Below, one piece after another: positions 268 through 14,723 of a stretch of 34,645 nt of DNA. This stretch comes from Lentisphaerota bacterium (GTDB lineage: Bacteria; Verrucomicrobiota; Kiritimatiellia; PWTM01): NCBI GenBank assembly GCA_016873715.1, contig VGWF01000043.1, forward strand, positions 1-34,645, given 5' to 3'. The notes under the pieces were generated by a model, which was given only the letters and a program-made list of their open reading frames with translations, searched no databases and was not told the DNA's origin. Every line of letters begins with the position of its first letter. Position 1 is the stretch's first letter. A program made the position numbers and the translations under genes.

Positions 268-891
268 ATGACGACGATTCGAACCCTGTCCGTGGGATGC
301 ATGCTCGCCGGGGCCGTGCTCGCCGGGGAAACCCCCACGAACCGCCCGGCATCCTGGGCGCGGCCCGTAACGCTGGAAGGCGTCCCCAACCTGCATCAAG
401 TCTGCAGCAATCTCTACCGGAGCGCCCAGCCGACGGCGCAGGGCATGCGGAACCTCGAGAAGAAGGGTGTGGCGACGGTCGTCAATCTGCGGTCCTTCCA
501 CTCCGACCGCGACGAACTCCAAGGAACGCGGCTCGCGTTCGAACACCTCACCATGAAGGCGTGGCACCCCGAACGGCACGAGGTCGTCCGATTCCTCCGG
601 ATCGTCGCCGACCCGAAACGGACCCCCGTCCTCGTCCACTGCCAGCACGGGGCCGACCGCACCGGCACCCTGTGCGCGATGTACCGCGTCGCTGTTCAGG
701 GCTGGACGAAAGAGGAGGCCGTCCGCGAGATGACCCTGGGCGGATTCGGGTTTCATGAAGTCTGGCAGAACCTGCCCGCCTGGATCGCCGACCTCGATAT
801 CGAATCCATCCGGCGGGACGCGGGCATCGCGGCCGGCCCGCCCCCTTCAGAAGACGAAACCAAGGCAAAGGCAGGGACACAGACGCCGTGA
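268..891 (+). CDS. Secreted dual-specificity / tyrosine phosphatase-like protein
   Basis: This is a 207-residue protein with an N-terminal signal-like segment (about residues 1-20) followed by a cysteine-phosphatase domain. The catalytic loop HCQHGADRTG is visible, with nucleophile C125 and phosphate-binding R131 in the CX5R arrangement. Upstream, a YRSAQPT segment is typical of the bacterial DSP/PTP group (DUF442-like and SiW14-like proteins). The family dephosphorylates phospho-residues, phosphoinositides or other phosphoesters; the substrate here is unknown. The ATG at 268 was chosen because the frame before it encodes only Arg/Pro-rich translation of non-coding DNA, whereas this ATG begins a signal peptide. 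The gene stops inside sequence resembling a degenerate copy of the tandem repeat that follows, so its last residues (AKAGTQTP) may be repeat-derived. Confidence 0.75.
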   Translation: MTTIRTLSVGCMLAGAVLAGETPTNRPASWARPVTLEGVPNLHQVCSNLYRSAQPTAQGMRNLEKKGVATVVNLRSFHSDRDELQGTRLAFEHLTMKAWHPERHEVVRFLRIVADPKRTPVLVHCQHGADRTGTLCAMYRVAVQGWTKEEAVREMTLGGFGFHEVWQNLPAWIADLDIESIRRDAGIAAGPPPSEDETKAKAGTQTP

Positions 892-911: not shown

Positions 912-1719
912 CAGCCCGTTCCATAGAGATACGAGAGGACGGGTCTGGAGGGCGCCGCTCTGTCGGCGCCGTGCAGAAGGCCCTCGGAGCATCGTCCATT
1001 CCGGGACAGGGGGGACAGAGATGCGGTTCGGGCAACCCGTGTGAAGTACGCTTGGACACGGCCGCGACGGAGCGCGGCCCTCCAAGCCCGTTCCATGGAG
1101 ATACGAGAGGACGGGACTGGAGGGCGCCGCTCTGTCGGCGCCGTGCAGAAGGCCCTCGAAGCATCGTCCGTTCCGGGACAGGGGGACAGAGATGCGGTTC
1201 GGGCAACCCGTGTGAAGTACGCTTGGACACGGCCGCGACGGAGCGCGGCCCTCCAGGTCCGTACCATAGAGATACGAGAGGACGGGACTGGAGGGCGCCG
1301 CTCTGTCGGCGTCGTGCAGAAGGCCCTCGAAGCATCGTCCGTTCCGGGACAGGGGGACAGAGATGCGGTTCGGGCAACCCGTGTGAAGTACGCTTGGATA
1401 CGGCCGCGACGGAGCGCGGCCCTCCAGGTCCGTACCACAGAGATACGAGAGGACGGGACTGGAGGGCGCCGCTCTGTCGGCGCCGTGCAGAAGGCCCTCG
1501 AAGCATCGTCCGTTCCGGGACAGGGGGACAGAGATGCGGTTCGGGCAACCCGTGTGAAGTGCGCTTGGACACGGCCGCGACGGAGCGCGGCCCTCCAGGT
1601 CCGTACCATAGAGATACGAGAGGACGGGACTGGAGAGCGCCGCTCTGTCGGCGCCGTGCAGCAGGCCCTCGAAGCATCGTCCGTTCCGGGACAGGGGGAC
1701 AGAGATGCGGTTCGGGCAT
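912..1719. repeat. 171-bp tandem array of inverted hairpin pairs (BIME-like)
   Basis: Successive copies of the marker ATGCGGTTCGGGCA start at 1021, 1192, 1363, 1534 and 1705, an exact 171-bp period. The first unit has one extra G before the marker. Each unit holds hairpin A, with arms GGCGCCG/CGGCGCC around a 6-nt loop and a GGAG head (arms start at 951, 1123, 1294, 1465 and, mutated, 1636). It also holds hairpin B in the opposite orientation, with arms GGCCGCG/CGCGGCC and the same head on the other strand (starts at 1060, 1231, 1402, 1573). Read from their GGAG heads, A and B are alike except for two base pairs swapped in both arms and one loop base. This resembles REP/BIME elements mobilised by REP-associated tyrosine transposases, none of which is encoded here. 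Because 171 is a multiple of three, long false frames run through it on both strands. Confidence 0.85.
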
Positions 1720-1839: not shown

Positions 1840-2172
1840 ATGAAGGCGATGCTGAAGTGGGCGGTGGTGGCGGCGGCGGGCGTGGCCGGGTTTGCGGCGG
1901 CGGTGATGACCGTGCCGGCCCCGGCGGACCGGTCGGTGCCGGTGCAGTCGGTCGAGCCGGGCGTCTTCGCGGCGGCGGGCTACGACGCGCGGCGCGCGGT
2001 GCTGACGCTGGTCTTCCGGAACGGATACGCCTACGAGTTCCTGGGCGTGCCGCCGGCGCTCGCGTCGGAGTTCCTCGCGTCGGACAGCAAGGGCGCCTAC
2101 TACAACGAGAACATCCGCAATCTGCATACCGCGGTCCGCATCGGCGGCCCGGGGACGGCGCGGATCCCGTGA
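1840..2172 (+). CDS. KTSC-domain protein with N-terminal membrane/signal segment
   Basis: This is a 110-residue protein. Residues 5-25 are hydrophobic (WAVVAAAGVAGFAAAVM), consistent with a signal peptide or membrane anchor. The rest matches the small KTSC domain: a VPVQSVEPGVF opening, GYD, a strand ending in FRNGYAYEFLGVP, and a SKGAYYNENIRN close. KTSC domains occur alone or attached to lysyl-tRNA-synthetase-like and other proteins, and their function is not well defined. The start is supported by a strong ribosome-binding site, GGAGGTGG at 1828-1835, shortly before the ATG. It lies alone between the tandem array and the LamG gene. Confidence 0.7.
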   Translation: MKAMLKWAVVAAAGVAGFAAAVMTVPAPADRSVPVQSVEPGVFAAAGYDARRAVLTLVFRNGYAYEFLGVPPALASEFLASDSKGAYYNENIRNLHTAVRIGGPGTARIP

Positions 2173-6507: not shown

Positions 6508-7664
6508 GCCCGACACGATCCATCCGCGACCTGCGCGCCGGCGTCATCGGCACCGGCTTCATCGGCCCCGTGCATGTCGAGGCGCTGCGGCGGCTCGGCG
6601 TGGCCGTCACGGCGATCTGCGACGTCCCGGCCCAGGCGGAGGCCGCCGCGCGGCGCCTGGGCATCCCGCGCGCCTGCACGGACCACCGCGAACTGCTGAA
6701 GGCGGGCGACGTCGATGTCGTCCACATCGCCTCGCCGAACCGGTTCCACTGCGAGATGTCGCTGGCCGCGCTGGCGGCGGGCAAGCACGTCGTCTGCGAG
6801 AAGCCGCTGGCCATGACCACGGCCGAGACCGCGCGCATCGTCGCGGCCGCCGCGGCGAGCCGGACCGTCTTCGCGGTGAACTACAACGTCCGCTTCTACG
6901 CCGCCGTGCTGCAGATGCGCCGGATGGTCGAGGCCGGCGACCTGGGAGACATCATCCACGTCAACGGCTCCTACATGCAGGACTGGCTCTTCAAGGACAC
7001 CGACTACAACTGGCGCCTGCTGCCCGGCGAGGGCGGGAAGCTGCGGGCGGTGGCGGACATCGGAACGCACTGGATGGACCTCGTCACGTTCGTCACGGGC
7101 ACGCGGATCCGGTCCGTCCTCGCCGACCTCGGCACCTGCCACAAGACCCGGAAGCGCCCGCTCGGCGAGGTGCAGACCTTCGCGAAGTCCGACGCGAAGA
7201 TGCGCTACGCGACCTACCCGGTGAAGACCGAGGACTTCGCCTCCGTGCTGCTCGACTTCGCCAACGGAGCGCGAGGCAACCTCGGCGTGTCGCAGGTCGC
7301 CGCCGGCCGCAAGAACTGCATCCGCGTCGAGATCTACGGCTCGAAGAAGTCGGCCTGGTGGTGCTCCGAGGATCCCGAGATGCTGCACCTCGGCCACCGC
7401 GACGGCGCCAACGAGACCGCGGTCCGTGCGACGCCCGCCTTCGGCGACGGCGCCGCGGGCCTGATGGACTATCCGCCCGGCCACGTCGAGGGCTTCCCCG
7501 ACACGTTCAAGATGAACTTCCGCGCGATCTACTCGGCGATCGCCGCCGGCGGCGCGAAGCGTCCGCTGTTCGCGACCGCGAAGGACGGCCACGCCGAGGT
7601 CGCCGTGTGCGAGGCGATCCTGAGGAGCAACAAGGCCAGGGCATGGGTGAAGGTCGAGAAGTAG
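6504..7664 (+). CDS. Gfo/Idh/MocA-family NAD(P)-dependent oxidoreductase
   Basis: This is a 386-residue protein. The N-terminal Rossmann fold carries GVIGTGFIG (about residues 13-21), and the family motif EKPLAMT is present near residue 107. The C-terminal alpha/beta domain includes the conserved [13 protein letters not shown] segment and the YGSKKSAWW strand. Family members oxidise or epimerise sugars, inositols and related polyols with NAD(P)H. There is no signal peptide, so it acts in the cytoplasm. Its ATG overlaps the regulator stop (ATGA), which implies translational coupling. Together with the isomerase and aldolase downstream it probably processes an imported sugar or uronate; the substrate cannot be read from the sequence. 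Confidence 0.85.
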
Positions 7665-7730
7665 GGCGAGGGACGAGGGGCGGGGTGCGAGGGACGAGGG
7701 ACGAGGGGCGAGGGAAGAGGGACGGGGAAA
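7661..7730. repeat. Ten heptamers between dehydrogenase and isomerase genes
   Basis: Ten consecutive 7-mers run from 7661 to 7730, with consensus GAGGGAC and variants GAGGGGC, GGGGTGC, GAGGGAA and GGGGAAA. The strand is almost pure purine apart from the C ending most units. The first unit supplies the TAG stop of the dehydrogenase gene at 7662-7664. Confidence 0.7.
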
Positions 7731-9475: not shown

Positions 9476-9478
9476 GAC

Positions 9479-9605
9479 GGGAGTCGGGAGTGGGGAAAGG
9501 GGAGGCGGGAGTGGGGAATGGGGAGGCGGGAGTCGGGAGAGGCGAGGAACGGGTCGAGCTGGACTCGCGGGCTCCGGCTCCCCACTCCCGGATCCCGAAT
9601 CGACG
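9479..9605. repeat. Inverted pair of heptamer arrays before the glycyl radical enzyme
   Basis: Nine 7-mers of type GGGAGTC or GGGAGTG fill 9479-9541. A pyrimidine-rich array in the opposite sense (CTCCCCA, CTCCCGG, ATCCCGA) fills about 9572-9605. GGGAGTGGGGA on the left is the exact reverse complement of TCCCCACTCCC on the right, so the transcript could fold into a long stem just before the ribosome-binding site of the next gene. Confidence 0.65.
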
Positions 9606-9618
9606 GCGAGGTGATGTG

Positions 9619-12033
9619 ATGAAGAGACAACCGTTCGTCATGCGGTCCGGCCTTCGCCTCTCCCGCCGCGCCTTCCTCGGCGCGATCGGCGCGGCCGGGG
9701 CGGGGCGGCTGCTCGCGGGGGCGCCGTCGCCCTCGGCGGCCTCGATGGGCGCGCTGCGCCGCGAGGTGGTTGACTCGCCCTTCGCGGTCGCGCTGCACCG
9801 CGCGAGGGTGTTCACGAAGGTCTTCCAGGCCCGTGAGCGCGACCCGTGGGTCGTCCGCAAGGCCGCGGCGCTGCGCGAGTACTTCGAGACGGTTCCGCTG
9901 CACATCCGGTCCCACGACGGCATCGCCGGGACCATGTCCGAGAGACCCGGCGCAATGCCGGTGATGGTCGAACTCGGCATCGCGGAGAACCCGATCTGGA
10001 CGTCCGAGAACCCCGCGCGCGCCGGACACCTCGCCGGGCAGGTGCCGGAGGAGATCCGCGAGTACTGGGCGAACCGGAACCTGTGGGGCCTCTACCGCAC
10101 GGAGCTGATGGGCCAGCCGCCGGTCAAGTCCGCGGCCGACCTGCCGTCCGAGACGAGCTACAAGTTCATCTCGAACCAGGGGCACCTGAGCCCGTCCTAC
10201 GGCGAGCTGCTGCGCGCCGGGCTCGGCGGCGTGCTCGACGGGGTGAGGCGACGCAGGACCGCGGGGGCCGACGCCGAAGGCCTCGCCTTCCTCGGCGCGG
10301 CGGAGGATGCGCTGGCCGGCCTGTCCGCCTGGATCGCGCGCCACGCGGAGTTCCTCGCGTCCGAGGCCGGGCGATGCGACAACGCCGCGCGCGCCTCGGA
10401 ACTGCGCGAGATGGCGCGGATCGCGGGCCGCGTCGCGACGCAGCCGCCGGAGACGTTCCGCGAGGCGCTGCAACTGGTCTGGTTCGTCCACCAGGCGGTC
10501 CACATCGAGGGCCACGGCTACTCCTGCACGCCGGACCGGATCGACCAGCTTCTCCTCCCGTTCTACGAGCGCGACGTGAAGGCCGGCCGGCTCGACGACG
10601 CGGCGGCGCTGCGGCTCGCGGAGAACTTCGCGCTGAAACAGTACGACAACTCCTTCTGGGGGCCGGAGCACCACCTGACGCAGGGCCTGTGCGTCGGCGG
10701 CTCGACGCCCGACGGGCGCGACCAGACCAACCGCCTGAGCTGGCTCTTCGTCGAGGCCCACACGAACCTCGTGCTGCCCGAGCCGCTGCTGTGGATGCGC
10801 TGGCACCCGAAGATCGATCCGAAGTTCTTCGACTTCTGCCTCTCGCGACTGGAGCGCAGCACCTGCTTCCCGATGCTCTGGAGCGATGTCGCGATCCCGG
10901 CGGCGCTGCAGGAGCTCGGCATCGCGCGCGAGGACGCCTTCAACTACGTCCCGGTCGGCTGCAACGAGCTCGCCGTGCCCGGCAAGTGGTACTACAACCC
11001 CGGTGCCCATTGCGGCTACCTGCAAGCCGTCGAGGCCGCGATCACCGGCGGGGGCGGGCACAAGGGCCAGTGGAAGTGGCGCGACGTCGCCCCGGCGCCT
11101 GCGCAGCTCGCGACGTTCGACGCCTTCGCGGACGCCGTCGCCGCCTACATCCGCGCGGCCATGAAGAACGGCCGCGACAACCAGATGAAGGACCTCACCG
11201 CCCAGATCCGCTGGGGCAAGACGCCGCTGACCTCGTGCTTCTTCGACGGCTGCGTGACGCGGGCCCGCGACATGGCCGACGGCACGGCCTACAACTTCCT
11301 CTCCTGCGGCGGCATCGCGTTCGCCAATGCGATCGACTGCCTCGCCGCGGTGCGCGAGGTTGTCTACGAGAAGAAGCAGGCGACGCTCGACGAGGTCGCC
11401 GCCGCCTGCAAGGCCAACTTCGAGGGCCACGAGCGGCTGCGCGCGAAGCTGCTGGCTGCGCCGAAGCACGGCAACGACGACCCGCGGCTCGACGACGTGA
11501 TCCGCCTCGTCGAGCGCATGCGCGACCAGCCCCTGGCCGAGCTTTGCAGGGATCCGCGCGACGGCAGCCGCTTCGGCAACAGCCATGTCGTCCGCAGCGG
11601 GGCGGTCAAGCAGGGCCGCGTCACGCCCGCCACGCCCGACGGCCGGCTCGCCGGAACGCCGCTCGCGAGTTCCGTCGCGGCCTCGATGGGCTGCGAGCGC
11701 AACGGACCGACCGCGGTGCTGAACTCCGTCTGCAAGCTCGACTCGACCAAGAGCTGGCAGTGCGGATACCAAGTCAACATCCGCTTCCACGCCGGGATGG
11801 TCTCGAGCGAGGGCCAGCGCGCGAAGCTGCAGGCGATGCTGAACGCCTATTTCGCCAGGGGCGGGCAGGAGCTGCAGATCAACGTGGTCAGCGCCGACAC
11901 GCTGCGCGCCGCGCGGGCGAATCCCGATGCCTACCGCGACCTCGTCGTGCGCGTCGCCGGCTTCAGCGAGTTCTTCGTCCGCCTGACGCCGGACATGCAG
12001 GAGGAGATCATCGCGAGGACGGAGCACGGATGA
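9619..12033 (+). CDS. Glycyl radical enzyme (PFL/dehydratase family) with twin-arginine signal
   Basis: This is an 804-residue glycyl radical enzyme. The thiyl-radical cysteine is C448 in VGCNELAVPG and the glycyl radical residue is G781 in RVAGFSEFF, 24 residues from the C-terminus, as usual. The Glu two residues after the Cys (E450), used as acid/base in dehydratase-type members, is present, but the motif is GCNEL rather than GCVEP. Substrate is therefore not assignable; a dehydratase or C-X lyase is more likely than a pyruvate formate-lyase. Residues 13-40 look like a twin-arginine export signal (SRRAFLG at 15-21, then a weakly hydrophobic Ala/Gly stretch), which is unexpected because GREs and their activases are cytoplasmic. 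The start is supported by GAGGTGA at 9608-9614. The next in-frame ATG that would remove the signal, at 9745, has no comparable ribosome-binding site. The activase gene follows. Confidence 0.85.
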   Translation: MKRQPFVMRSGLRLSRRAFLGAIGAAGAGRLLAGAPSPSAASMGALRREVVDSPFAVALHRARVFTKVFQARERDPWVVRKAAALREYFETVPLHIRSHDGIAGTMSERPGAMPVMVELGIAENPIWTSENPARAGHLAGQVPEEIREYWANRNLWGLYRTELMGQPPVKSAADLPSETSYKFISNQGHLSPSYGELLRAGLGGVLDGVRRRRTAGADAEGLAFLGAAEDALAGLSAWIARHAEFLASEAGRCDNAARASELREMARIAGRVATQPPETFREALQLVWFVHQAVHIEGHGYSCTPDRIDQLLLPFYERDVKAGRLDDAAALRLAENFALKQYDNSFWGPEHHLTQGLCVGGSTPDGRDQTNRLSWLFVEAHTNLVLPEPLLWMRWHPKIDPKFFDFCLSRLERSTCFPMLWSDVAIPAALQELGIAREDAFNYVPVGCNELAVPGKWYYNPGAHCGYLQAVEAAITGGGGHKGQWKWRDVAPAPAQLATFDAFADAVAAYIRAAMKNGRDNQMKDLTAQIRWGKTPLTSCFFDGCVTRARDMADGTAYNFLSCGGIAFANAIDCLAAVREVVYEKKQATLDEVAAACKANFEGHERLRAKLLAAPKHGNDDPRLDDVIRLVERMRDQPLAELCRDPRDGSRFGNSHVVRSGAVKQGRVTPATPDGRLAGTPLASSVAASMGCERNGPTAVLNSVCKLDSTKSWQCGYQVNIRFHAGMVSSEGQRAKLQAMLNAYFARGGQELQINVVSADTLRAARANPDAYRDLVVRVAGFSEFFVRLTPDMQEEIIARTEHG

Positions 12034-12037
12034 AGAG

Positions 12038-12151
12038 GTTTCAGGTGTCAGGTTTCAGGACGGACCGAGGGAAGGCCTGCAATGGCAGCCCGCCCGGGTG
12101 GCGGGCGAAGGCGCGATGTCCGCTCGCGGCCTGCACCTGACACCCGACACC
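12038..12151. repeat. Inverted heptamer pair around a small hairpin
   Basis: GTTTCAG, GTGTCAG, GTTTCAG at 12038-12058 faces CACCTGACACCCGACACC at 12134-12151. GGTGTCAGG (12044-12052) is the reverse complement of CCTGACACC (12136-12144). Between them is a hairpin with arms GCCCGCC (12088-12094) and GGCGGGC (12100-12106). The structure occupies nearly all of the 130-bp gap between enzyme and activase genes and could adjust their relative expression. Confidence 0.6.
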
Positions 12152-12163
12152 GCGGGCGGACGC

Positions 12164-13069
12164 ATGAAGGGACGCATCTTCGACATCCAGCGCTTCTCGA
12201 TCCACGACGGACCCGGGATCCGGACGACGGTCTTCCTGAAGGGCTGTCCGCTGCGCTGCCTGTGGTGCGGGAACCCGGAGAGCCTGACTCTCGAACCTCT
12301 GCTGTCCTACATGCCCGACCGCTGCATCGCGTGCGGGGAGTGCGAGCGCGCCTGCCGGTTCGAGGCCGTGTCCGGCGGCACGGCCGGCGCGACCGCGGCG
12401 ATCGACCGCAAGGCCTGCACGGTCTGCGGCGAGTGCGTGCCGGTCTGCGACCCGAAGGCGCTGGAACGGGTCGGGCGCGACGCGACGATCGGCGAGGTCA
12501 TGGCGCTCGTCGAGCGCGACCGCGACTACTACGCCTCGTCCGGCGGCGGGATCACGCTGTCCGGCGGCGACCCGGTCTTCCAGCCGGATTTCGCGGCTGC
12601 CTTGCTCGAGGCGGCGCGAAGCGCGCGGCTGCACACGTGCGTCCAGACCTCCGGCCACGCGCCGTGGGGCGTGCTGGCGCGCCTCGCGCCGCTCACGGAC
12701 CTGTGGCTCTATGACTTCAAGGAGACCGACCCCGTTCTCCACAAGCGCTTCGTCGGGGAGTCGAACGAGACGATCGTCGACAACCTGCGCCGGCTCCACG
12801 GCACGGGCGCGAGGATCCTGCTGCGCTGCCCGATGATTCCCGGCCACAACGACCGCGACGCGCATCTCGACGGCATCGCCGCGCTTGCGCGGGAGCTGCC
12901 GAACCTGGTGGGCGTCGAGCTGCTGCCCTACTACGACCTCTGGCGCGCGAAGCTGCCGCGGCTCGGGCTGTCGACGACCTTCCCGGAGACCGTGAAGCCG
13001 CCGTCGCGCGAGACGATGAAGGCCTGGAACGAGCGGTTGCGGCGGCAGGCGGTGAAGGTGCAGGGCTGA
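12164..13069 (+). CDS. Glycyl radical enzyme activating enzyme (radical SAM)
   Basis: This is a 301-residue radical SAM protein. It opens with FDIQRFSIHDGPGIRTTVFLKGC, which is diagnostic for GRE activases. The SAM-cluster cysteines are C28, C32 and C35 (CX3CX2C). Two ferredoxin-type four-cysteine motifs follow (C54/57/60/64 and C85/88/91/95), placing it with the dehydratase-type activases rather than the short PFL activase. The glycine-rich SAM segment reads SGGDPVF instead of the usual SGGEP. It would abstract hydrogen from G781 of the enzyme encoded just upstream. It has no signal peptide, so activation must occur in the cytoplasm. The ATG at 12164 was preferred because it begins the conserved domain; upstream residues in this frame come from the repeat region. 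Confidence 0.9.
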   Translation: MKGRIFDIQRFSIHDGPGIRTTVFLKGCPLRCLWCGNPESLTLEPLLSYMPDRCIACGECERACRFEAVSGGTAGATAAIDRKACTVCGECVPVCDPKALERVGRDATIGEVMALVERDRDYYASSGGGITLSGGDPVFQPDFAAALLEAARSARLHTCVQTSGHAPWGVLARLAPLTDLWLYDFKETDPVLHKRFVGESNETIVDNLRRLHGTGARILLRCPMIPGHNDRDAHLDGIAALARELPNLVGVELLPYYDLWRAKLPRLGLSTTFPETVKPPSRETMKAWNERLRRQAVKVQG

Positions 13070-13085
13070 ACGGGAGGGAAGGAAC

Positions 13086-13271
13086 ATGACCGGGAAAGAC
13101 CTACGCGTGGCGTTTTCCGCGGGGGGTATCGGGATCGCAATCGTCGTCATCGAACACAACGGGGCCGTGGTGAACCGGGCCATCTGAATCCCGCTTGTCA
13201 TGAGTCTGCTCTTCAACGGTGCTGCGATGGTCGCCGCTCATGCTGTCCGGAAGAAAGGACCGGCACGGTGA
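13086..13271 (+). pseudogene. Small membrane-protein gene interrupted by an in-frame TGA
   Basis: A strong ribosome-binding site (GGGAGGGAAGGA, 13072-13083) precedes an ATG at 13086. The frame encodes 33 residues with a hydrophobic stretch (VAFSAGGIGIAIVVI), meets TGA at 13185-13187, then continues in the same frame for 27 more codons with a second hydrophobic stretch (IPLVMSLLFNGAAMVAAHAV) and a basic end, stopping at 13269-13271. That final stop overlaps the next gene's start as GTGA, the coupling seen elsewhere in this operon. This suggests a two-helix protein of about 60 residues broken by one nonsense change (TGG to TGA is one possibility). UGA readthrough or two separate tiny genes are alternatives. 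The family is not recognised. Confidence 0.4.
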
Positions 13272-14617
13272 AGCCGGGGCGGACCTCCAGGACGAGTGCT
13301 CGAGTTGCCGCTCTGGCGGTCGGTACGGCAACCTGGGCCTTTGCGGGGCCTGTCGGATCGCCGGAACACCCCAACGTCGTCCTGATCCTCTGCGACGACC
13401 TCGGCTACGGCGACGTGGGCTGTTACGGCGCGGCGGACCTGCGCACGCCGTACCTCGACCGCATGGCCGCGGAGGGGACGCGGTTCACGGACTTCGCCGT
13501 CGCCGCGCCGCTCTGCACGCCCTCGCGCGCGGCGCTGATGACCGGCCGTTATCCGGGCCGCAGCGGGCTGGCCACCGGCGTGCTGCGTCCGGACGCCACG
13601 AACGGCCTCGCCGCCGCCGAGGTCACGCTCGCGGAGATCGTGAAGCCCCGCGGCTACGCGACCGGCTGCATCGGCAAGTGGCACCTCGGGTTCAAGCCCG
13701 GCATGCGGCCGATGGACCAGGGCTTCGACAGCTATTTCGGCGTCCTGCACAACCTCGACAAGTTCGAGACCGTGCAGTTCGAGGCCGAGGGCGGCACGCC
13801 GGTGCTGCGCGGCGACGCCGTGGTGAAGCGTCCGGCCGTGCCCGCCGAGATGACCGGGATGTACACCGAGGAGGCGCTCCGGTTCATCGAGGCGAACCGC
13901 GCGCGCCCCTTCTTCCTCTACCTCGGCCACGCGATGCCGCACATCCCGTTCGACGCCTCGCCGCGCTTCAAGGGGCGGTCCGCGCGAGGTCTCTACGGCG
14001 ACGCGGTCGAGGAGCTCGACTGGAGCACGGGGGAGATCCTCGGCAAGCTGCGGGCGCTCGGCCTGGCGTCGAACACGATCGTCCTCTTCACCAGCGACAA
14101 CGGTCCCGAGCGCAACACGCCCGGGAGCGCCGCGCCGCTGCGCGGAACGAAGCACACGGTTTTCGAAGGCGGCCTGCGCGTGCCGTTCCTCGCCTGGGGT
14201 CCCGGCCGCGTGCCCGCGGGCCGCGTGTGCGGGGAGTTCGTCGCCGCCATGGACGTGCTGCCCACGCTGGCGGAGCTGTCCGGCGGTGCCGTGCCGGCGG
14301 AACGGACGGTCGACGGATCGAGCTTCGCCGCGCTGCTGCTCGGCCGGGAGGGCGCACCGTCGCCGCGGAGGGATCTCTACGCGCTCTACGGACTGAACCA
14401 GCGCCGCCAGCAGTCGATGCGCGACGGTCCGTGGAAGCTCCACCTCGGTGCCGCGCCCGAACTCTACAACCTCGACAGCGACCTCGGCGAAACGAACGAC
14501 GTTGCGGCCGCGCATGCGGACATTGTCGAGCGCCTGACCGGCCTCGCCGGCCGTATCCGCGATGTGACGCTCGGCGTCAGCGGCGACGGCGGGCTGCCCC
14601 CCGTGCCTCCCCGATGA
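13268..14617 (+). CDS. Secreted sulfatase (type I, CTPSR), first of three in the operon
   Basis: This is a 449-residue type I sulfatase with a signal peptide-like N-terminus (to about residue 28). PNVVLILCDDLGYGDVGCYG contains the paired metal-binding aspartates. CTPSR at residues 83-87 is the formylglycine signature, with C83 the residue to be modified. HLGFKPGMRPMDQGF and a later TSDNGPE segment are also typical. It hydrolyses sulfate esters, presumably on a polysaccharide, outside the cytoplasm. The GTG start at 13268 overlaps the preceding stop and has AAGAAAGGA at 13251-13259. No sulfatase-maturing enzyme is in the window. An aryl-sulfatase A-like fold is likely; the substrate cannot be assigned. 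Confidence 0.85.
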   Translation: MKPGRTSRTSARVAALAVGTATWAFAGPVGSPEHPNVVLILCDDLGYGDVGCYGAADLRTPYLDRMAAEGTRFTDFAVAAPLCTPSRAALMTGRYPGRSGLATGVLRPDATNGLAAAEVTLAEIVKPRGYATGCIGKWHLGFKPGMRPMDQGFDSYFGVLHNLDKFETVQFEAEGGTPVLRGDAVVKRPAVPAEMTGMYTEEALRFIEANRARPFFLYLGHAMPHIPFDASPRFKGRSARGLYGDAVEELDWSTGEILGKLRALGLASNTIVLFTSDNGPERNTPGSAAPLRGTKHTVFEGGLRVPFLAWGPGRVPAGRVCGEFVAAMDVLPTLAELSGGAVPAERTVDGSSFAALLLGREGAPSPRRDLYALYGLNQRRQQSMRDGPWKLHLGAAPELYNLDSDLGETNDVAAAHADIVERLTGLAGRIRDVTLGVSGDGGLPPVPPR

Positions 14618-14681
14618 TCCGCCCGCGATGTCACGCCCGTGCCGGCCGGGTCCCCGAAGCCCGGCGGCCCGCGCCACCCAT

Positions 14682-14723
14682 GTGTAACATTATCGGATGC
14701 GGTCGCATCGGCTAATGTTACAC
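14682..14723. promoter_or_regulatory. 42-bp nested dyad between two sulfatase genes
   Basis: Outer arms GTGTAACATTA (14682-14692) and TAATGTTACAC (14713-14723) are perfect 11-bp inverted repeats. Inner arms GATGCG (14696-14701) and CGCATC (14704-14709) share the same centre. In all, 18 of 21 opposed positions pair. It is conspicuously AT-rich for this genome and lies 147 bp before the next sulfatase. It could be an operator, an RNA hairpin that processes or attenuates the operon transcript, or a terminator; there is no T-tract. Confidence 0.6.

Follow-up and report, generated by a model that had tools for sequence, protein, structure and literature searches.

An array of tandem repeats in the genome of a Lentisphaerota bacterium is very probably a BIME-like cluster of GGAG-headed REPINs that were dispersed by a RAYT encoded elsewhere in the genome and later amplified. 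The stretch of DNA that was analysed as a whole, here called the window, comprises 34,645 nucleotides. The array occupies its positions 916-1718 and sits between two Pfam-supported genes, a phosphatase-like gene that ends at 891 and a KTSC gene that starts near 1840. An earlier note on this DNA had described five units of 171 bp with two GGAG-headed hairpins, A and B, in opposite orientation. The period of 171 bp (97% matches, score 1499 in Tandem Repeats Finder) and the orientation of the hairpins hold; the array has 4.7 copies, in which five A hairpins on the + strand alternate with four B hairpins on the - strand. The features of the array and its two neighbours are the following.

268..891, + strand: dual-specificity/tyrosine phosphatase-like gene, upstream neighbour (Pfam PTP-NADK 62.9 bits, DSPc 37.6 bits; start codon approximate)
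916..1718, no strand: tandem array
947..970, + strand: hairpin A copy 1, with GGAG head, 7-bp stem and CTCTGT loop; its B partner is missing
1035..1174, no strand: core of about 140 bp, B-linker-A with flanks; recurs singly at 88-90% identity (C26, C6, C3, C107)
1060..1083, - strand: hairpin B copy 1
1084..1118, no strand: 35-nt linker of dimer 1, homologous to the linkers of dispersed dimers
1119..1142, + strand: hairpin A copy 2
1231..1254, - strand: hairpin B copy 2
1290..1313, + strand: hairpin A copy 3, with one G.T pair
1402..1425, - strand: hairpin B copy 3
1461..1484, + strand: hairpin A copy 4
1573..1596, - strand: hairpin B copy 4
1632..1655, + strand: hairpin A copy 5, with one A.C mismatch
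1840..2172, + strand: KTSC-domain protein gene, downstream neighbour (Pfam KTSC 55.3 bits)

Read as pairs, the array consists of four complete B-linker-A dimers with 35-nt linkers and one A hairpin without B at the left edge, where the first unit begins just beyond a lost B hairpin. Hairpin A (GGAG-GGCGCCG-CTCTGT-CGGCGCC) and hairpin B (GGAG-GGCCGCG-CTCCGT-CGCGGCC) are both 24 nt long and have the GGAG head in common. As had been noticed before, two stem pairs are exchanged on both arms, and the loops differ at a single base (CTC[CT]GT). Each hairpin folds by itself with -9.7 kcal/mol as DNA (z -3.0 and -2.5). Rfam gave no match at gathering score anywhere in the window, and a promoter scan at the array found nothing. 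Elsewhere in the window, two short intergenic arrays with 7-bp and 21-bp units (7663-7728 and 9478-9547; AGGGACG and CGGGAGT) are unrelated to the hairpins, and positions 9490-14715 encode an enzyme of the glycyl-radical type (pyruvate formate lyase-like), what looks like its activating enzyme adjoining it, and then a run of sulfatases.

The earlier note had named hairpins unique to this locus, or stem changes that break pairing as often as loop changes, as the cases against its reading. Neither is what the source genome holds. Used as a BLAST query against its own genome, the array matched itself at 100% and gave partial matches at about 100 further places. The pattern GGAGGGCNNNGCTCNGTCNNNGCC, in which three N pairs are not forced to be complementary, matched 185 times compared to 0 for a backward control, and a second pattern added nine matches with other stems, so that the hairpin is present in about 200 copies. 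The genome was sampled as 1.23 Mb of contig starts and selected stretches. In 1.6 Mb of sampled sequence, a census that required head and loop to match exactly at their proper distance but imposed nothing on the stem yielded 157 places, 138 of them with seven of seven Watson-Crick pairs, whereas control anchors gave at most 8 matches, never more than 5 pairs and no perfect stem. Among copies that deviate from A or B by one substitution, the changes numbered 17 in the loop (6 bases), 3 in the head (4 bases) and 4 in the stem (14 bases). Compensated stem changes on both sides were common. Essentially all copies have the GGAG head, which is directly preceded by CT in 101 of 146 copies. Further GGAG hairpins with another loop, TTCCAC (e.g. 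GGAG-GGCCGGG-TTCCAC-CCCGGCC), were observed in the source genome as well as in or beside RAYT genes of relatives (L262, L348, L350).

The dispersed hairpins also point to the unit from which the array is built. Among 46 head-facing pairs the commonest gap is 34-36 nt and the order is mostly B then A. As the dimers mostly follow this head-facing plan and their linkers are homologous between unlinked loci, the dimer is the copied unit, and the 171-bp unit would represent a tandem amplification of such a dimer with its heads facing across a 34-36 nt linker. Other arrays of the genome have periods of about 184-195 (C20), 185 (C63), 156 (C62) and 101 bp (C75), and tandem clusters occur on C119 and C40 as well. 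The asymmetry of A and B could in addition be a functional device like that of the y and z REPs of E. coli, in which weaker mutual pairing favours two small hairpins. This idea would add to the REPIN reading and is no alternative to it; most head-facing dimers indeed join B with A, and BIMEs of E. coli combine y with z REPs (PMC8266576). We nevertheless consider it doubtful, given that a single long hairpin (-27.6 kcal/mol) is still the more stable fold of the 83-nt dimer compared to two separate ones (-9.7 each), and that many of the dimers go back to one event that was copied in tandem.

Covariation of the stem is not restricted to this genome. A scan of one genome per species across about 85,000 species matched at least 100 loci. 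Among the 100 matches listed, 44 belong to Verrucomicrobiota, 21 to Planctomycetota, 9 to Kiritimatiellota and 6 to Lentisphaerota, 19 come without a named phylum and 1 from a Myxococcota MAG. The latter (L238, JALOQD010000193.1) holds one exact GGAG hairpin match, which could reflect either a spread beyond the PVC group or a binning error. At the unforced double positions, where any G or C was allowed on both arms, 101 of 101 distinct matches were complementary and all four combinations occurred (80 of the listed loci). In the free-stem set of 99 distinct 24-mers, 80% of the inner pairs were complementary compared to 42% after shuffling (maximum 51% of 1000) and 23-41% in a slid control. Thirty perfect stem types share one head and loop; their two foot pairs are always G-C, while positions 3-7 vary. 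As judged from these sequences, stem covariation is genome-wide and cross-phylum, and GGAG-tagged hairpins extend through PVC bacteria. The five inner stem pairs would need only to pair and could thus drift by compensated change.

The earlier note had compared the layout to BIMEs moved by REP-associated transposases, while finding no such gene in the window. RAYT genes are indeed absent from the window and were identified elsewhere in the same genome, on C147, C170 and C11, each with GGAG-headed hairpins on both sides. This bears out the proposed layout and refines it to a GGAG head and a B-linker-A dimer. The gene on C147 scores 81.4 bits with NF047646 (REP_Tyr_transpos; cut-off 80), and the closest solved relative of its protein is E. 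coli TnpAREP (PDB match 4er8, E 5.8e-05). It is flanked by GGAGGGGCACG... hairpins (GGAG-GGGCACG-CTCCGT-CGTGCCC), two upstream and three downstream. These flanks represent mainly a third stem type, neither A nor B, and additionally hold GGAGGGCGCCGCTCCGTCGGCGCC, which equals hairpin A of the array but for one loop base. No RAYT with the exact A and B pair as its only flanks was found. The RAYT on C170 (L071, 1180-2480; 86.4 bits, above the cut-off) has at its sides a different family of GGAG hairpins, whose stems contain two G-A mismatches (GGCC-GA-GC-TAC-GC-GA-GGCC) that recall the bulge required in E. coli REPs. The gene on C11 remains below the cut-off with 73.2 bits and is accompanied by GGAG-GGCCCGC hairpins. 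Other Y1 genes (PF01797) on C27 and C8 were rejected as partner transposases as they are not flanked by the GGAG hairpin family. The one on C27 (L009, gene 1024-1803, + strand) encodes a more IS200-like Y1 protein with its own inverted repeats (CCCACCGGGACAAGCCCGGTGGGAGC) and represents a repeat system of its own within this genome.

GGAG hairpins are also found inside RAYT genes. In 131 measured RAYTs, the region between the HuH and WQ motifs was long in 23, of which 15 carry a headed hairpin there, whereas none of the 108 RAYTs with a short region does. The intragenic hairpins are nearly all GGAG-headed, often form inverted pairs and do not interrupt the reading frame. Compared to its two paralogues, the RAYT on C11 has an extra stretch of 32 residues that is made of a hairpin pair.

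C11:47120-50572 (L073), gene 1468-2088, - strand: RAYT with in-frame REP pair
1648, - strand, and 1685, + strand: hairpins of this pair

Headed hairpins with different stems occupy the same site in 14 other RAYTs of this class. We take these in-frame REP pairs inside RAYT genes as evidence of movement.

Alternatively, the hairpins could be kept as RNA elements such as mRNA 3' stabilisers, attenuators or terminators, so that the covariation would reflect RNA folding and the spread by a transposase would be incidental. According to PMC3733652, most REPs lie downstream of genes and transcription of REPs is often assumed; the array directly follows a gene, and G.T pairs are present among the imperfect copies. 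However, the region 850-1850 contains no intrinsic terminator (GC hairpin and T run), and the hairpins point both ways in each unit. A function as RNA also gives no role to the conserved unpaired GGAG head, to the neighbouring CT or to RAYTs flanked by the same hairpins, and the in-frame copies inside RAYT genes speak against it as well. Overall, we regard this explanation as improbable. Still less probable is a passive minisatellite grown by recombination or slippage, with hairpins that have no link to a transposase: the units are 97% alike and array periods differ by locus, which suggests local amplification, but single copies of this dimer, with a homologous linker, are scattered over many unlinked loci, and its head and loop are found beside RAYTs in many genomes, so local amplification was probably the last step and not the origin.

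Dispersal of GGAG REPINs by a RAYT thus remains the preferred reading, and a mechanism can be proposed for it. The REPIN would be a non-autonomous miniature element in which the REP hairpins B and A, inverted relative to each other, face head to head across a linker of 34-36 nt. A RAYT (TnpAREP, Y1/HuH) encoded elsewhere would act on folded single-stranded DNA and recognise one of the two strands of each hairpin. From the biochemistry of TnpAREP we infer that recognition could proceed via the GGAG head, the paired foot and the CTC[CT]GT loop. The predicted cut lies at the CT next to the head, with the AG of GGAG selecting this site, and joining of the cut ends would disperse dimers. Subsequent amplification of a single dimer together with its flank could then have produced the tandem array. 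Since TnpAREP acts on single-stranded DNA, we tentatively favour this over RNA as the folded form under selection.

The GGAG head bears on how RAYTs read their tags and how new REP families arise. Structural data on tag reading by TnpAREP cover a single protein; tolerance of tag changes varies among its relatives (PMC8266576). We compared head and residue in those 69 RAYT loci whose head could be called unambiguously, with a focus on the position of E. coli H101, which is listed among the tag-contact residues of TnpAREP (PMC6006769). It was taken from an alignment with 4er8, and the E. coli row served as position anchor only. The aligned residue is His in 26 of 27 loci flanked by GT[AG]G, whereas 40 of 41 scorable GGAG-flanked RAYTs have Thr (29), Arg (9) or Val (2). 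The association between residue and head type is strong by Fisher's test (1e-16). The column with the highest mutual information lies in beta-1, a reported tag-contact region (PMC8266576), which is aromatic with GT[AG]G and Val, Ile or Leu with GGAG; the H101 column ranks second. Held-out loci from two further searches were scored in the same way, and 14 of 15 fitted (His in 6 of 6 with GT[AG]G, a residue other than His in 8 of 9 with GGAG). Exceptions are L319 and L440, with His and GGAG, and L284, with Arg and GTGG. The close pair L455 (Arg, GGAG) and L457 (His, GT[AG]G) differs in both residue and head. In a tree of 83 proteins from which these columns were left out, the head needs 5 changes, 4 of them forced by well supported branches, and the H101 position likewise needs 5. 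Independent pairs (about 2.5 agree, 0 disagree) are too few to reach significance. The match between H101 position and head is therefore a strong correlation with few independent switches, and with just 4-5 of these a code can only be hypothesised. We tentatively propose, as a reading that could well turn out either way, that GGAG REPs form a large PVC class whose RAYTs changed their specificity for the second guide base via the H101 position, where His would read T and Thr, Arg or Val would read G, with help from beta-1. If true, this would be a simple protein-DNA code of a single-strand transposase that arose several times. A natural set of close RAYT relatives that differ in their tag (GT[AG]G or GGAG), with one candidate reader position, makes tag reading directly testable.

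In comparison with known systems, the RAYTs described here share with TnpAREP (PMC6006769; 4er8) the HuH motif DHVH, the WQ...D...R motif and a tyrosine before NPV, and two genes of the source genome exceed the REP_Tyr_transpos cut-off. They differ in that GGAG-flanked RAYTs carry Thr, Arg or Val at the position of H101 and that the aromatic residue of beta-1 is replaced by Val, Ile or Leu in many of them. Published REP tags are GTAG/GTGG or CGTC (PMC3733652; PMC6006769), and we found no mention of GGAG as a REP tag in the REP/RAYT literature searched. When all 256 tetranucleotides were scored without preference at the base of the hairpins that flank RAYTs of this class on either side, GTAG and GGAG came out on top; GGAG was first in a larger set, in which GGAG RAYTs had served to build the query and were thereby enriched. 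GAGG was dropped as a competing head, as it results from reading GGAG with an offset of one base. TnpAREP cleaves at CT, for which the AG of the tag has been proposed as guide (PMC8266576), and this AG is retained in GGAG. The hairpin is a dispersed palindrome of 20-40 bp that forms inverted dimers and tandem clusters and flanks a RAYT, as REPs do, but its unpaired 5' head is GGAG instead of GTAG, GTGG or CGTC. It is a variant REP with the tag at the same place and not a GTAG REP. Membership in the CGTC superfamily (PMC3733652) was rejected: our hairpin has CGTC at the end of its loop, but in that superfamily CGTC is an unpaired terminal tag with no linked transposase, whereas here it extends from the loop into the stem, GGAG serves as the tag and there are linked RAYTs. 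The GTAG-20 REPs of Opitutus terrae (Verrucomicrobia; PMC3733652) likewise occur in a REP-rich PVC genome and have a modified head, but there the third head base is altered (GTGG) and here the second. With the GTAG superfamily, its REPINs and its BIMEs (E. coli y/z, Pseudomonas, Stenotrophomonas; PMC3733652, PMC8266576), our hairpins share the short palindrome with an unpaired 5' tetranucleotide, stem variants with compensated changes, the arrangement as inverted dimers at distances of 20-100 bp, tandem reiteration with flanking DNA, a RAYT flanked by its own hairpin family and CT beside the head. They differ by the head, which is GGAG and not GTAG/GTGG, and by a loop, CTC[CT]GT, that is common to several PVC phyla while the stem varies. 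Surveys that seek GT[AG]G heads only would miss this large REP class in PVC genomes. The BIME-like type of cluster was known before; new here are the GGAG head, its PVC-wide spread and the matching change in the transposase.
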